A DNA stretch of 64,000 nucleotides, taken from the NCBI GenBank assembly GCA_027618475.1, contig JAQCEJ010000020.1:1-64000 (forward strand), in the 5' to 3' direction. The notes beneath the pieces were generated by a model that saw nothing but the letters and a program-made list of their open reading frames with translations, was not told the origin of the DNA and did not search any database. Shown one piece after another: positions 3,176 through 49,216 of the stretch. How positions within the stretch are numbered: the first letter of the stretch is position 1; each line of letters begins with the position of its first letter. The DNA comes from Planctomycetota bacterium (GTDB taxonomy: Bacteria; Planctomycetota; Planctomycetia; Planctomycetales; Planctomycetaceae). Both the position numbers and the translations under genes were made by a program.

Positions 3176-4321
3176 ATGGATCGCTCCATTTCCATTCCCA
3201 AGTCTAATCACCGACATCGTGCGTTGCTGCATGGTCGCAAACTGAGGCAATTGGTGTCACTGCTATTTGGTGGTGTCATGTGTCTGATACTGTCGGGCTG
3301 TGGCAAAATGATTGCCCGCGAAGCGACGACGCAATTGCTGATTTCCGATTCCGTCGACCGCGCTATCGCCTCGGTTGATTTCAGCGATCTCAGCGGCAGA
3401 AAGATTTTCTTCGATACAACGTATTTGCAACCGGTTAAGGAAATTGGCTTTGTCAATTCACCATACGTTATCGGATCGCTACGTCAGCAGATGATTGCCT
3501 CCGGCTGTCTGCTTCAGGAAAAGAAGGAAGACGCTGAAATCATCGTAGAAGGGCGGATCGGTGCCCTGGGGGCCGACCAGCACGAAGTCATATACGGTGT
3601 GCCGGCAAACAATCTGCTAAATGCCGCATCCTCGGTGGTTCCTACAATGCCCCAACTGCCGACAGTCCCCGAAATTTCGATCGCAAAAAAGGACGATCAA
3701 ATGGCAGCCGCCAAGATCGCTCTCATTGCTTACGACCGCGAATCTCGCGAACCGATTTGGCAATCAGGAATTTCACAGGCGCGCAGTACGGCCCACTCGG
3801 AATGGTTACTCGGTGCGGGTCCGTTTCAGAGAGGTACCATTTATCGATATAAGCGATTTGCCGGGGCAAGAGGCTTTAACCTACCGCTCGTAAAGTCAGC
3901 GGATGATGACGATAGGATCAAATCGCGGCCGTATTTTAACGAACATCGATTTGCAAAGTCGAAACCGGTTTTGGCAGCTGAGCAGGTATCACCCGCAACC
4001 GATTCTGAAACGACTTCAGAGACCGACGCCGGCAAGGTCATTCCCGCTGGTGGCGAGCTCGAACAATCGACTGAAGAAACACCTCCTGAAGCGATCAAGC
4101 CTTCCGCCGATGCGAAACCGATTACGTCGTCCCACGCCGGTCCCAAAGGGGAGCCAAACACGGTGGACGACTGGAACGAAACGGACTCGACTCGCCATTC
4201 GACGTGGAGCGACGAGGAACTACAAATCGCCGATGATGAACTGTCGTTTCCGACATCGGACCTGAAAGTCGAAACTCCTCCTCGGAAGTTCAGACTTTTT
4301 CCCCGGCGTGCCACTCCCTAA
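3176..4321 (+). CDS. Lipoprotein of unknown function with acidic low-complexity tail
   Basis: A 381-residue protein. A basic N-terminus leads into a hydrophobic stretch that ends in the lipobox LSGC (cysteine near residue 42), so it is a predicted lipoprotein. Residues 45-225 form one globular domain with blocks such as SVDFSDLSGRKIFFDTTYL and AYDRESREPIWQSG. It resembles planctomycete lipoproteins grouped as DUF6655, an assignment from memory that should be treated as tentative. Residues 245-365 are rich in Ser, Thr, Glu and Pro with no predicted fold. The start follows the 3033 terminator by about 110 bases, so it has its own promoter. mnmG begins 135 bases downstream. Confidence 0.65.
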   Translation: MDRSISIPKSNHRHRALLHGRKLRQLVSLLFGGVMCLILSGCGKMIAREATTQLLISDSVDRAIASVDFSDLSGRKIFFDTTYLQPVKEIGFVNSPYVIGSLRQQMIASGCLLQEKKEDAEIIVEGRIGALGADQHEVIYGVPANNLLNAASSVVPTMPQLPTVPEISIAKKDDQMAAAKIALIAYDRESREPIWQSGISQARSTAHSEWLLGAGPFQRGTIYRYKRFAGARGFNLPLVKSADDDDRIKSRPYFNEHRFAKSKPVLAAEQVSPATDSETTSETDAGKVIPAGGELEQSTEETPPEAIKPSADAKPITSSHAGPKGEPNTVDDWNETDSTRHSTWSDEELQIADDELSFPTSDLKVETPPRKFRLFPRRATP

Positions 4322-4456
4322 TATTTGTGGAGTTGGTATGATGGGATGGCTGCCCGCCGCTTGTATTTCGTGAAAACGGTGCGATCGTGAGGCTTTACGT
4401 ACCGGTTTTGTGTTGAAATGCCCTTGCTATTTCGTTGCTGTTCCGAGAAATGTTGA

Positions 4457-8607: not shown

Positions 8608-8772
8608 ATAGCCTGGGGCGGAAGCCCCAGGTGGTCGAATGCCCCGTTGTACTTGAGCCCCGTGAGGGGCGACAGACGAGAATTTCGGCATTGTTTTCCA
8701 TTCGCCTGTCGCCCCTTTCGGGGCTACTCGCAACGCTCGGCAATCGGTCCTGGGGCTTCCGCCCCAGGCTAT
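8608..8772. repeat. Nested palindromic intergenic element (165 bp)
   Basis: Two perfect 24-base terminal inverted repeats (8608-8631 and 8749-8772), each itself a hairpin (CCTGGGGC-GGAA-GCCCCAGG and its reverse), flank an inner pair (8656-8675 and 8706-8725) that matches at 18 of 20 bases and is again self-complementary. The whole folds as a cruciform-like or MITE/BIME-like unit. It lies between the Usp and symporter genes in a 615-base stretch (8439-9053) that has no gene; the remainder of that stretch shows nothing I recognise. No transposase is present, so any mobility would be in trans. Confidence 0.75.
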
Positions 8773-45956: not shown

Positions 45957-46682
45957 TTAACGCGACTCGGCTTCTAATCGTGCAGCCGCTTCTAAATCCG
46001 TGAATTCTGGCAGCGGATCGGCGTCAGTTTCTTGCGGGTTACCGGCAAACTCTTCCTGTAACTCTCGCCGGCGACGGGCGACCTGGCGGTCGAATTCGCT
46101 AAGAACATCAGCCGCTTTGTCACGCGACGTCACCAGGCCGATAATCAGATACTGCGTGATCGCCAGAAAAAAACAGGCCCAGCCCAAGCGGCCCGGTGCT
46201 GCAGCCGCGAGAATCGCGAAGACCGGCGACGAACGACTGAGGTGCTTGCACAGCAAGCCTCTGCAGAACGGGAAGCAGTATCCTCTGATCTGAGGAAACC
46301 ATCGCTCCTTCCGCTGAAACTTCAACTTCGGCGGGCCGCTGTGAATGATCGTGAACAATTCCTGATCGGGCATCATCTCGATCACACCGATCGCCAGCAT
46401 CACGCGCATGCCGACGAGTATCCAATACCACTCGCCGTCGCTTTGCAGAAACGAAGCCCAGCCGAATAGCAGTTCTTCCATATTGCGGGTGGCAACGAGC
46501 AATATCAGCGAACCCCGAACCCACTGCTCGAGATCTTTTTCGAGTTCGGCATCGATTACGTTGACCCGCAGCACGCGCTTCATGAAAAAGCGGAACAGTG
46601 GGATCGCGATAAAACCGACGATCAACCGCGTCAGTGGTCGAAGCACCGGTCGAATGGCAAATGTATTGATGAGATTCGGCAT
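45957..46682 (-). CDS. Multi-pass membrane protein downstream of the retron-type RT (possible effector)
   Basis: A 241-residue protein with about four hydrophobic segments (near residues 12-32, 55-75, 85-105 and 150-185) and a charged C-terminal tail ([27 protein letters not shown]). A cysteine- and aromatic-rich loop ([15 protein letters not shown]) precedes the last segments. I recognise no family. It begins ten bases after the reverse transcriptase stop on the same strand, so the two are probably one transcript. That makes it a candidate retron effector, as two-helix membrane proteins serve that role in retron Ec48. It could instead be a conserved host gene that happens to follow. No ribosome site is obvious, consistent with coupling. 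Confidence 0.6.
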
Positions 46683-46692
46683 AAATCACACG

Positions 46693-47961
46693 TTACCAGC
46701 GAATCTGATTAAACAACGTCCACAGCCTGCTGCCACGGGACGGATTGAGCTGCTGTACGTAGGCGATTTTTCCTCGAAGATGCGACGCGAAATCGGGATG
46801 CTGCAGGCGATTTTGTGTTGCCGGACCGTGACGCACACAATTCGTCAGAATCGCTTTAAGGGAGTCGTATTGTTGGCGCGATATATTGATATTCTGATTC
46901 ACGACCACGCCGGTTACAGTCTGGCGCGAATTCTGCCTTAGAATTTTCCGCTTCTGTTTATGAACGCGAAACCGTTCATCTCGGATCACTTGCGTAACCA
47001 GTGGAATAAAAATTTTCAGGCCACGCTCGAACGATGCGGGCCCAGAAAATGTGAGGTCATCTGCATATCGAGTGTAATTCGCACCGAACGACCGGGCCAG
47101 CCCAAACAGCCGAATATCGAGGCTGAACGCCGCCAGATTGGCCAACATCGGCGATGTCGGTGCACCTTGCGGCAGATGTCGACGCAGGTACGGCACGAAC
47201 GCCCCGGCGGAGTCTTTGGGAAATCCCATGGTCGACGGCACACACGATGTCGCCAGTCGACCGAGCCATGTCGAGATCTCGCGATTGTATCCCAGCCCGC
47301 GAAACAGCGCCACCACGCGGGAAAATGTCACGTTGGGATAAAAATTTTCGAGGTCGAATTTGAGCACGACTGTCTGCCCGACGTGTGGCTTCGCGTTGGT
47401 GACAATCGATCGTCCGGTCGTAAACCCCTGACACGCAACATGCAGCGGGACGCGATTCAAAATCTGCTCGAGCAGCTGCGACTGGGCTTTGTGTAGAATC
47501 GGTTTGGGAGCTTCGATCAGTCGGTAACCACCGCGGCGTTTTTTAATCCAGTGATATCGATAATGAGATTCCCGCTCGTTCGGAGGGCGATCGCCGTCGT
47601 GAAAGCGATGAATCAGCCATGCGAGTTGTCCGAGAGGAATCTGCAACCACATTGCCAGGTCGGCAGGGGTTTCCAACCGAGGAAGTTGCCAATCATCGAG
47701 AAGTTGATGCCGGCTGTCGGAACTGAGATCCTGATATCCACCGTCGGGGATCGCCAATCTTGCGAAAGCGTAAGGGGATTCTGCAATCGTCTGCCGAACC
47801 AGAGGTTGACGCAGCTGCTGATACCGCAAAGGAACCAGTTTCGCTCGCCCGCGTTTGTCGACCACCGATTTCGTCAGAGCCGCAGGGACGACAGAATCGG
47901 CAACGGACGCATCTGACGACGAGCGAAACAGCCATCCGAACAGAAAATCGAACAGACCCAT
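46693..47961 (-). CDS. Retron-type reverse transcriptase
   Basis: A 422-residue RT. Residues 1-95 form an extension of unknown role. The RT core runs from about 96 to 422: KKRRGGYRLIEAPKPIL, the retron region-X motif NAKPH (189-193, NAxxH), catalytic Asp203 in KFDLENFYPN, LPQGAPTSPMLAN (263-275), YTRYADDLTF with Asp301 and Asp302, and the retron region-Y motif VTG (349-351). It lacks maturase, HNH and integrase domains, so it is not a group II intron, and no template/variable repeats mark a diversity-generating element. A structured RNA lies upstream on the same strand. The ATG at 47961 follows GAGACGG. Retrons make RNA-linked msDNA and many act in anti-phage defence. Confidence 0.93.
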   Translation of the reverse strand: MGLFDFLFGWLFRSSSDASVADSVVPAALTKSVVDKRGRAKLVPLRYQQLRQPLVRQTIAESPYAFARLAIPDGGYQDLSSDSRHQLLDDWQLPRLETPADLAMWLQIPLGQLAWLIHRFHDGDRPPNERESHYRYHWIKKRRGGYRLIEAPKPILHKAQSQLLEQILNRVPLHVACQGFTTGRSIVTNAKPHVGQTVVLKFDLENFYPNVTFSRVVALFRGLGYNREISTWLGRLATSCVPSTMGFPKDSAGAFVPYLRRHLPQGAPTSPMLANLAAFSLDIRLFGLARSFGANYTRYADDLTFSGPASFERGLKIFIPLVTQVIRDERFRVHKQKRKILRQNSRQTVTGVVVNQNINISRQQYDSLKAILTNCVRHGPATQNRLQHPDFASHLRGKIAYVQQLNPSRGSRLWTLFNQIRW

Positions 47962-48069
47962 ATTACCGTCTCATCTACCATACGACGAGTTGTCCGGGAC
48001 TGATCGAAGTCGCTTCATGGCTGGTCGGTTCCATTTCTCATCGTAAGGTACTCCTTTTCATACAATCGC

Positions 48070-48239
48070 GGCCGGCGGGTCGCACAACTGATCCTGTGGC
48101 GAATAGTGACCGCGGTAACGTTGCTTACCGCGTCACTATTCACGATATGCAAAACCGGCAATGCTTCTCCCGCGGGGTAACCCCGCAGCGTTCCCATCCA
48201 TGACTGGTGAGGGAACAAAACTTGTGCGACCCACCGACC
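48070..48239 (-). ncRNA. Candidate retron msr-msd RNA
   Basis: On the minus strand, in order: arm a1 (48239-48222), a candidate priming G at 48221, a hairpin with a 6-base stem (48216-48190), a second hairpin GCGGGG-TTA-CCCCGC (48186-48172), about 30 less structured bases, a long hairpin of 17 pairs with one bulge and a 6-base loop (48141-48101), and arm a2 (48087-48070). The 18-base arms pair completely on this strand, with two G-U pairs; on the plus strand these become A-C mismatches. This is the layout of known retrons (a1, msr, msd, a2, then RT). The RT start lies 108 bases downstream. Boundaries are inferred from pairing only. Confidence 0.75.
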
Positions 48240-48254
48240 ACGATGAGCAGCTTT

Positions 48255-48282
48255 ATCGTAACGCCTTTTCCGTTAAGGTCAA
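48255..48282 (-). promoter_or_regulatory. Candidate promoter of the retron transcript
   Basis: Reading the minus strand, TTGACC (48282-48277) and TACGAT (48260-48255) are separated by 16 bases, matching five and four of six sigma-70 consensus positions. The predicted start, near 48247, falls about eight bases before arm a1. Confidence 0.55.
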
Positions 48283-48396: not shown

Positions 48397-48508
48397 CTGG
48401 TAAAATTCGATTGTTGGATTCCTTGTGAACCGTTACAGTTCACGATACCGATCTCGCGGCAACCACAGTCCCCTTCGATCCCTCTGGAAAGGGTGGAACT
48501 TCCCCATT

Positions 48509-49216
48509 ATGTTCGGACAATCGAACGAAACGGCTTACGATCTTCGCTTTTCGTTGTGGAATATCCCCATCCGAGTCCATCCGATTTTCTGGGCAACCGC
48601 AGCGTTTCTCAGCTGGGTGCCCCAGCGACTCGATCTCACATTTATCGGCATGCTGTGTGTGTTCTTCGCTATACTCGCCCACGAACTCGGACATGCCCTT
48701 GTCAACAAAATTTACGGCTGGCGATCGGAAATCGTGCTCGAATTCTTCGGCGGCTATGCGACGACAACCCGCCATTCTTACGGAAAAAACATCGTCGTCT
48801 GTGCGGCGGGGCCGCTCGTGGGACTGTCGATCTGGGGCCTCTGCAAGATCGCCGTCATAATTATTATCGATAGAAAAGCGTATCCGGGTGAAATTGCCGC
48901 GTATGCACTGTCGTTTTCACTGTTTATCAATTTCATCTGGAGCCTGATGAATCTGATGCCTGTGTTTCCATTGGATGGCGGGCAGATATCGCGAAACCTG
49001 CTGATGTGGCTTTCACCGCGCAACGGTGCCCTCTACTCGGTGAATCTATCGATTCTCTGCGCAGGAGGTATCGCATTATGGGCGATGCGATGCAAATATC
49101 TTAACGAGGGCTTCTTCGGCCTCGATCCCACATTCCTCGCGATCATGTTCGCCGTACTCTGCTATCAATCGATCCAGGTTCGAAATATGATGCAGCAAGG
49201 CGGGTCTTATCGGTGA
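48509..49216 (+). CDS. Site-2 protease family (M50) membrane metalloprotease
   Basis: A 235-residue polytopic protein with the M50 zinc motif HELGH in the first hydrophobic region (FFAILAHELGHALV) and the second-site NLMPVFPLDGGQI with its metal-ligand Asp. These enzymes cut substrates within the membrane. It is the short form without PDZ or CBS domains. The frame extends upstream to a GTG at 48425, but the ATG at 48509 gives a normal N-terminus. It is divergent from the retron and convergent, 12 bases apart, with the enolase-superfamily gene. Confidence 0.85.
   Translation: MFGQSNETAYDLRFSLWNIPIRVHPIFWATAAFLSWVPQRLDLTFIGMLCVFFAILAHELGHALVNKIYGWRSEIVLEFFGGYATTTRHSYGKNIVVCAAGPLVGLSIWGLCKIAVIIIIDRKAYPGEIAAYALSFSLFINFIWSLMNLMPVFPLDGGQISRNLLMWLSPRNGALYSVNLSILCAGGIALWAMRCKYLNEGFFGLDPTFLAIMFAVLCYQSIQVRNMMQQGGSYR

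Follow-up and report, generated by a model that had tools for sequence, protein, structure and literature searches.

A probable chromosomal retron kept across most of the family Planctomycetaceae

The window analyzed here is a stretch of 64,000 nucleotides from a planctomycete contig (GenBank assembly GCA_027618475.1, contig JAQCEJ010000020.1, positions 1 to 64,000). Its minus strand encodes a retron-type reverse transcriptase (RT), with a structured RNA element upstream of it and an open reading frame (ORF2) downstream; an M50-family peptidase gene lies on the plus strand, beyond the RNA (Table 1). Retrons are bacterial systems that produce small DNAs linked to RNA.

Table 1. Features at the locus, with window coordinates
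Feature	Coordinates	Strand	Remarks
ORF2, 241 aa, all-helical, probably a membrane protein	45957..46682	-	10 nt after RT; a direct neighbor in some family members
Retron-type RT, 422 aa	46693..47961	-	NAxxH 189-193, YADD 299-302, VTG 349-351; N-terminal MGLFDFL helix
a2 arm, 23 nt	48065..48087	-	Pairs with a1
Conserved single strand CACAGGATCAG; putative reverse transcription start	48088..48098	-	Invariant G at 48088 beside a2 (alignment position G156)
msd hairpin, fast-changing sequence with pairing preserved; putative msDNA template	48099..48143	-	Alignment, covariation
msr hairpin 2, CTGCGGGG-TTA-CCCCGCGG, most conserved element	48170..48188	-	99.8% of cells paired; loop TTA
msr hairpin 1, differing in sequence and length among homologues	48190..48216	-	Fold, alignment
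Invariant G right after a1, candidate 2'-OH priming (branch) guanosine	48221..48221	-	Invariant in 50/50 homologues; site agrees with the known priming G in AGC context (PMC6868368)
a1 arm, 23 nt	48222..48244	-	Pairs with 48065-48087
-10 element TACGAT	48255..48260	-	Predicted start about 7 nt downstream, at the a1 foot
-35 element TTGACC, putative ncRNA promoter	48277..48282	-	16-nt spacer to -10; sequence pattern
M50-family peptidase, divergent; probably the ancestral upstream neighbor, not part of the retron	48425..49216	+	Profile match, neighborhood

Results

The RT matched the RVT_1 domain, and its YADD motif was invariant in 20 orthologues, as were N189, A190, and H193 of region X (the NAxxH motif as defined in PMC6868368). 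Region Y reads VTG-VVVN in the window; its G was invariant, and its V and T were present in most of the same 20 sequences. The nearest solved structure to an AlphaFold model of the RT (mean pLDDT, 84) was the RT of retron Ec86, likewise the best match of the RT sequence profile; retron RTs ranked at the top by sequence and by fold, with group II and DRT2 RTs far behind. With retron types assigned by PADLOC models, the best profiles were RT_other (428 bits), RT_outgroup (407 bits), and RT_XIII (365 bits). The RT core is preceded by about 90 residues, mostly modeled at low confidence, and a short N-terminal helix (MGLFDFL or similar, by a loose pattern) was found in 26 of 37 RTs. In the window it spans residues 1 to 12 (47926-47961); the helix is MGLFDFL in most orthologues and resembles an amphipathic anchor, and our guess is that it might contact a membrane or a partner. 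In close pairs, the dN/dS of the RT was 0.03 to 0.18.

On the minus strand, the a1/a2 stem of the RNA runs for 23 base pairs without interruption, including three G-U pairs. The first-pass annotation, made from the sequence of the window, had described an inverted repeat enclosing hairpins upstream of the RT on the same strand, and this arrangement was confirmed. The repeat and its full pairing on the minus strand are real, but the arms, given as 18 bases with two G-U pairs, are 5 bp longer than that. Three hairpins do lie between the arms, the largest having a stem of about 19 bp with one bulge rather than 17 bp, and the element does sit just before the RT, whose start (47961) is 103 bases, not 108, downstream of a2 on the same strand. 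The minus-strand fold (-106.7 kcal/mol, versus -71.1 ± 4.5 in dinucleotide shuffles; z, -7.85; 0/200) was stronger than the plus-strand fold (-89.1). In five shuffled windows, the longest run of pairs with arms 100 to 250 nt apart measured 15 to 17, and the real window held, besides the 23-bp run of the arms, just one other run above 17; runs of 23 pairs at this spacing are not chance products here. An Rfam search gave no match for the RNA, even at an E value of 5.

An alignment of 50 diverse homologous RNAs was turned into a covariance model, which scored 147.8 bits on the minus strand of the window (48066-48243) versus 23.9 bits on the plus strand. Constant across the 50 RNAs were the end of a1 in AA and the invariant G after it, the hairpin TGCGGGG-NTA-CCCCGCGG, a TTG, the strand CACAGGA, the invariant G beside a2, and a2 itself, while hairpin 1 and the msd hairpin varied in sequence. 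By its position, the post-a1 guanosine (G in 50/50) is a candidate for the priming guanosine known in AGC context; AA always precedes it (n = 50), and the next base is C in many homologues and T in the window. The a1/a2 repeat thus surrounds an RNA of msr-msd layout, with msr hairpins and one long msd hairpin. Two-sided changes were seen at 26 of 35 consensus pairs, at 14 of 19 modeled a1/a2 pairs, and at all eight msd stem pairs examined, so the compensatory changes by which the first-pass annotation had proposed to check its structure are abundant in both stems. Stem cells paired in 94.1% of cases, compared with 38 to 43% when one side was slid by 1 to 3 columns, and covariation was 0.433 versus 0.166 after shuffling, with 0 of 500 shuffles reaching the observed value. 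Helix cells over the 50 homologues held 130 G-U versus 33 A-C combinations, the excess expected of a minus-strand RNA; with the bit scores of the two strands, this bears out the earlier argument that the minus-strand RNA is the functional form. The RNA also changes far more slowly than synonymous sites: at a dS of 0.94 (several saturated dS values were excluded), genomes G085 and G059 differ at 3 of 162 RNA positions. A double compensatory change in the msd stem separates G038 from G075. These computations show purifying selection on both the RT and the RNA.

Several signals make the RNA look like a small gene of its own. Of 76 homologues, 54 have a predicted sigma-70-like promoter (a TTGAC-type -35 element plus a -10 element) no more than 45 nt upstream of a1, compared with 1.5 expected, and the -10 element ends 5 to 9 nt ahead of the aligned arm in 51 of 67. 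A run of at least four T's stands at the a2 foot in 47 of 77 homologues (4.3 expected), by which the a1/a2 stem resembles an intrinsic terminator. The window itself has no U-run after a2, so the RNA there may be read through into the RT; judged by these patterns, an msr-msd-RT transcript unit would have a separate RNA promoter in most homologues and a U-run inside it in the 47. The distance from RNA to RT ranges from about 26 to 568 nt.

RNA and RT share one cassette in the window and in nearly all relatives, the exception being genus g4. In its three species (G003, G058, and G084), no RNA lies upstream of the RT; it is found on another contig, between two other genes and at the identical place in all three genomes. 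A contig break was rejected as the cause of the split, the contigs of G003 and G058 extending several kilobases past the RT. The g4 copies retain a1/a2, the invariant G, and the conserved hairpin, and their msd stem has changed yet is still base-paired. A conserved TTGATT...TATGAT-like stretch precedes the RNA, and a T-run follows it. The RT remains constrained (dN/dS, 0.066 for G084/G058). With the two at separate loci, RNA and RT must act in trans if both are active. The g4 RNAs, with their promoter-like and U-run signals, are located at L231:5622-5791, L232:5668-5840, and L233:5755-5926. Another variant of the arrangement occurs in G036, where two tandem RNA copies (L234:3931-4083 and 4250-4402), nearly alike in the msr and differing in the msd hairpin, precede one RT.

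Among 150 genomes of the same family (Planctomycetaceae), an RT orthologue was present in 97, and 95 of these had the RNA; the covariance model gave strong matches in the same number of genomes, every one RT-positive. The two RT-positive genomes without an RNA match, G019 and G104, both have partial RT hits; that of G104 lies at a contig end (locus L168, only 53 bases), and a contig end is presumed for G019. RT loci once thought to be armless (L013, L021, L125, L139, L142, L143, and others) did yield the RNA to the covariance model, genus g4 excepted. The same structure in the absence of an RT, which would have spoken against the first-pass reading, did not appear: no RT-less genome among the 150 gave a strong match under strict search filters, which weak copies could escape. 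Weaker but significant matches to the RNA model were also found ahead of related RTs from other planctomycete families and from Bythopirellula, Acidobacteria, and Burkholderia. Four genomes of the family (G116, G117, G119, and G144; e.g., L241:6808-6968) carry more distant retron-type RTs with a weak RNA-model match of their own, in G117 and G144 in addition to the orthologue.

Trees of RT and rpoB were compared for 50 genomes by quick searches that resolve deep splits poorly. All nine multimember genera were monophyletic in both trees, and of 18 supported RT splits within the family, 14 were supported by rpoB as well and one conflicted. The conflict concerns G029 (L029, L203), whose RT groups with genus g16 and whose rpoB falls in a group otherwise devoid of the RT; horizontal transfer of this RT is likely. 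Mapped on an rpoB tree of 46 RT-positive and 24 RT-negative genomes, presence of the RT takes 8 to 9 changes, versus about 25 with shuffled labels. Read most simply, these trees would have the RT present early in the family, lost about eight times, and transferred once, which amounts to mainly vertical descent. Plasmid and phage collections yielded only distant retron RTs (best matches, <45% identity). A mobile, horizontally spread retron fits neither these distant matches nor the largely rpoB-congruent history with its one likely transfer.

At 37 family loci with a called RT (gene calls being simple longest open reading frames), the RT is the only gene shared by all. In 16 of them ORF2 comes after it, always on the same strand, and other neighbors stand there in the remaining 21; the M50 peptidase precedes the RT in 11, probably the ancestral order. 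Nor did 57 loci that carry related RTs, mostly in other phyla, have a conserved neighbor, and neither set showed a conserved, dedicated effector beside or fused to the RT of the kind that defines tripartite types I to XIII. The surroundings in the window are not a defense island: the neighbors are a fusion protein with MFS, acyltransferase, and AMP-binding parts, an enolase-superfamily enzyme, and the M50 peptidase. Elsewhere in the window, an exact 24-bp inverted repeat (ATAGCCTGGGGCGGAAGCCCCAGG; 8608-8631 and 8749-8772), with each arm nearly palindromic, is REP-like and unrelated to the retron.

Discussion

We interpret the element as a chromosomal retron composed of an RNA with its own promoter and an RT (probability, about 0.9), with the priming site, the template limits, and the production of msDNA deduced from its layout. 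On all features within reach of testing it classes as a retron, and a single one, the dedicated effector, puts it outside the effector-coupled types. The retron reading of the first-pass annotation is supported by covariation, by co-occurrence with the RT, by the NAxxH and VTG motifs, and by the Ec86-like fold. In the known retron reaction, the 2'-OH of the guanosine after a1 primes synthesis, and copying proceeds through the msd (PMC6868368). By analogy, the minus-strand RNA would start at its own sigma-70-type promoter (48255-48282), adjoining a1, and fold into the a1/a2 stem, two msr hairpins, and the msd hairpin. The RT (47961-46693) would recognize this RNA and prime from the 2'-OH of G48221; copying would start near G48088 and run through the msd hairpin, and the predicted product, a short branched molecule of RNA and DNA, would remain with the RT.

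A tripartite retron, with ORF2 as an effector held inactive by the RT-msDNA complex until phage attack, would suit the position of ORF2 in the window, 10 nt downstream of the RT on the same strand, its place beside the RT at 16 of the 37 loci, and its all-helical, probably membrane-bound product; membrane effectors are known for some retrons. At the other 21 RT loci, however, different genes occupy the neighborhood, and searches of Pfam, PADLOC, and NCBIfam, like the comparison of its predicted structure with solved ones, found no match for ORF2. Because ORF2 occurs in 130 of 150 genomes, many of them without the RT, and is often distant from the RT where both are present, it is not a dedicated RT partner, and we regard the tripartite explanation as unlikely. 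In the species of the window, its 10-nt distance from the RT still leaves ORF2 a conceivable partner in cis.

Two further explanations concern the RNA. It could be a structured leader or attenuator of the RT mRNA, in which the a1/a2 stem and U-run act as a regulated terminator, as the U-runs at the a2 foot and the upstream position in nearly all genomes might suggest. An attenuator does not explain why the msd hairpin, the CACAGGA strand, and the invariant G next to a1 are each conserved in their own right, nor why the distance between RNA and RT varies, and in the three g4 species the RNA sits at another locus, where it cannot be a leader, with all of its parts kept; this explanation is very improbable. 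An RT and a structured RNA likewise go together in other RT-ncRNA systems (DRT2- or DRT9-like, or group II-derived) (PMC12039810, PMC12483538), but the rank of retron RTs above all others by sequence and fold, the presence of NAxxH and VTG, and the retron layout of a1/a2 with its adjacent G leave membership in such a system scarcely credible.

Turning from these alternatives back to a retron of RNA and RT, its function is probably something other than the usual phage-defense package, given its long inheritance, the lack of a fixed partner gene, and an RNA that appears to be its own small gene. Retrons studied today are mostly patchy phage-defense cassettes with a neighboring toxin. We see even odds that RT and msDNA form a standing complex in the planctomycete element and that its partner is not a neighboring toxin, as in the classified defense retrons, but the product of a gene elsewhere in the genome or a core host protein; such a partner is favored because selection keeps RT and RNA together while all neighbors are exchanged. 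Somewhat more tentatively, the element may serve a lineage-wide cell function in the Planctomycetaceae, carried by two independently expressed genes, an sRNA-like msr-msd with promoter and terminator and the RT, which would act in trans; with no toxin alongside, its role or partner would be unlike those of the classified defense retrons.

Among known systems, retron Eco1 (Ec86) provides the best RT match by profile and fold and shares the order of a1, G, msr hairpins, msd hairpin, a2, and RT. It differs in having a dedicated effector, with the complex solved (7v9x), where the planctomycete element has no conserved neighbor, and in lacking the N-terminal extension of about 90 residues that the planctomycete RT carries. 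The best PADLOC profiles, RT_other and RT_outgroup, name no system or effector, and RT_XIII is clearly weaker. A parallel in distribution is with the myxobacterial retrons (Mxa1/Mx162 and Sau1/Sa163 type), reported as chromosomal, present in 27 of 28 strains, and judged vertical (Rice and Lampson, 1995, as cited in PMC6868368). Chromosomal location, lineage-wide presence, and vertical descent are, on that cited account, common to both; lineage-wide vertical retrons are thus already known from myxobacteria. RTs of Myxococcus and Pyxidicoccus fall under the same PADLOC models (RT_other and RT_outgroup), a likeness that does not establish their identity with the Mx162 RT, and a Pyxidicoccus locus weakly matches the planctomycete RNA model. 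The myxobacterial retrons belong to another phylum, with an RT about 44% identical and a different RNA sequence; the separate promoter, the U-run stem, and the split arrangement are observations made in planctomycetes.

Neither planctomycete retrons nor naturally split retrons were found in the open-access literature, within which the planctomycete lineage, the promoter and terminator signals of the RNA, and an RNA naturally located apart from its RT therefore appear to be new. With its compensatory changes, the alignment of 50 RNAs can serve directly as a covariance model in searches for such RNAs, and it can help to map the features by which the RT recognizes them. Strong purifying selection has acted on protein and RNA alike, and most of a family has retained the retron despite the turnover of its neighbors and the split in g4; this bears on what purpose effectorless retrons serve, among them those of myxobacteria, the first to be discovered.
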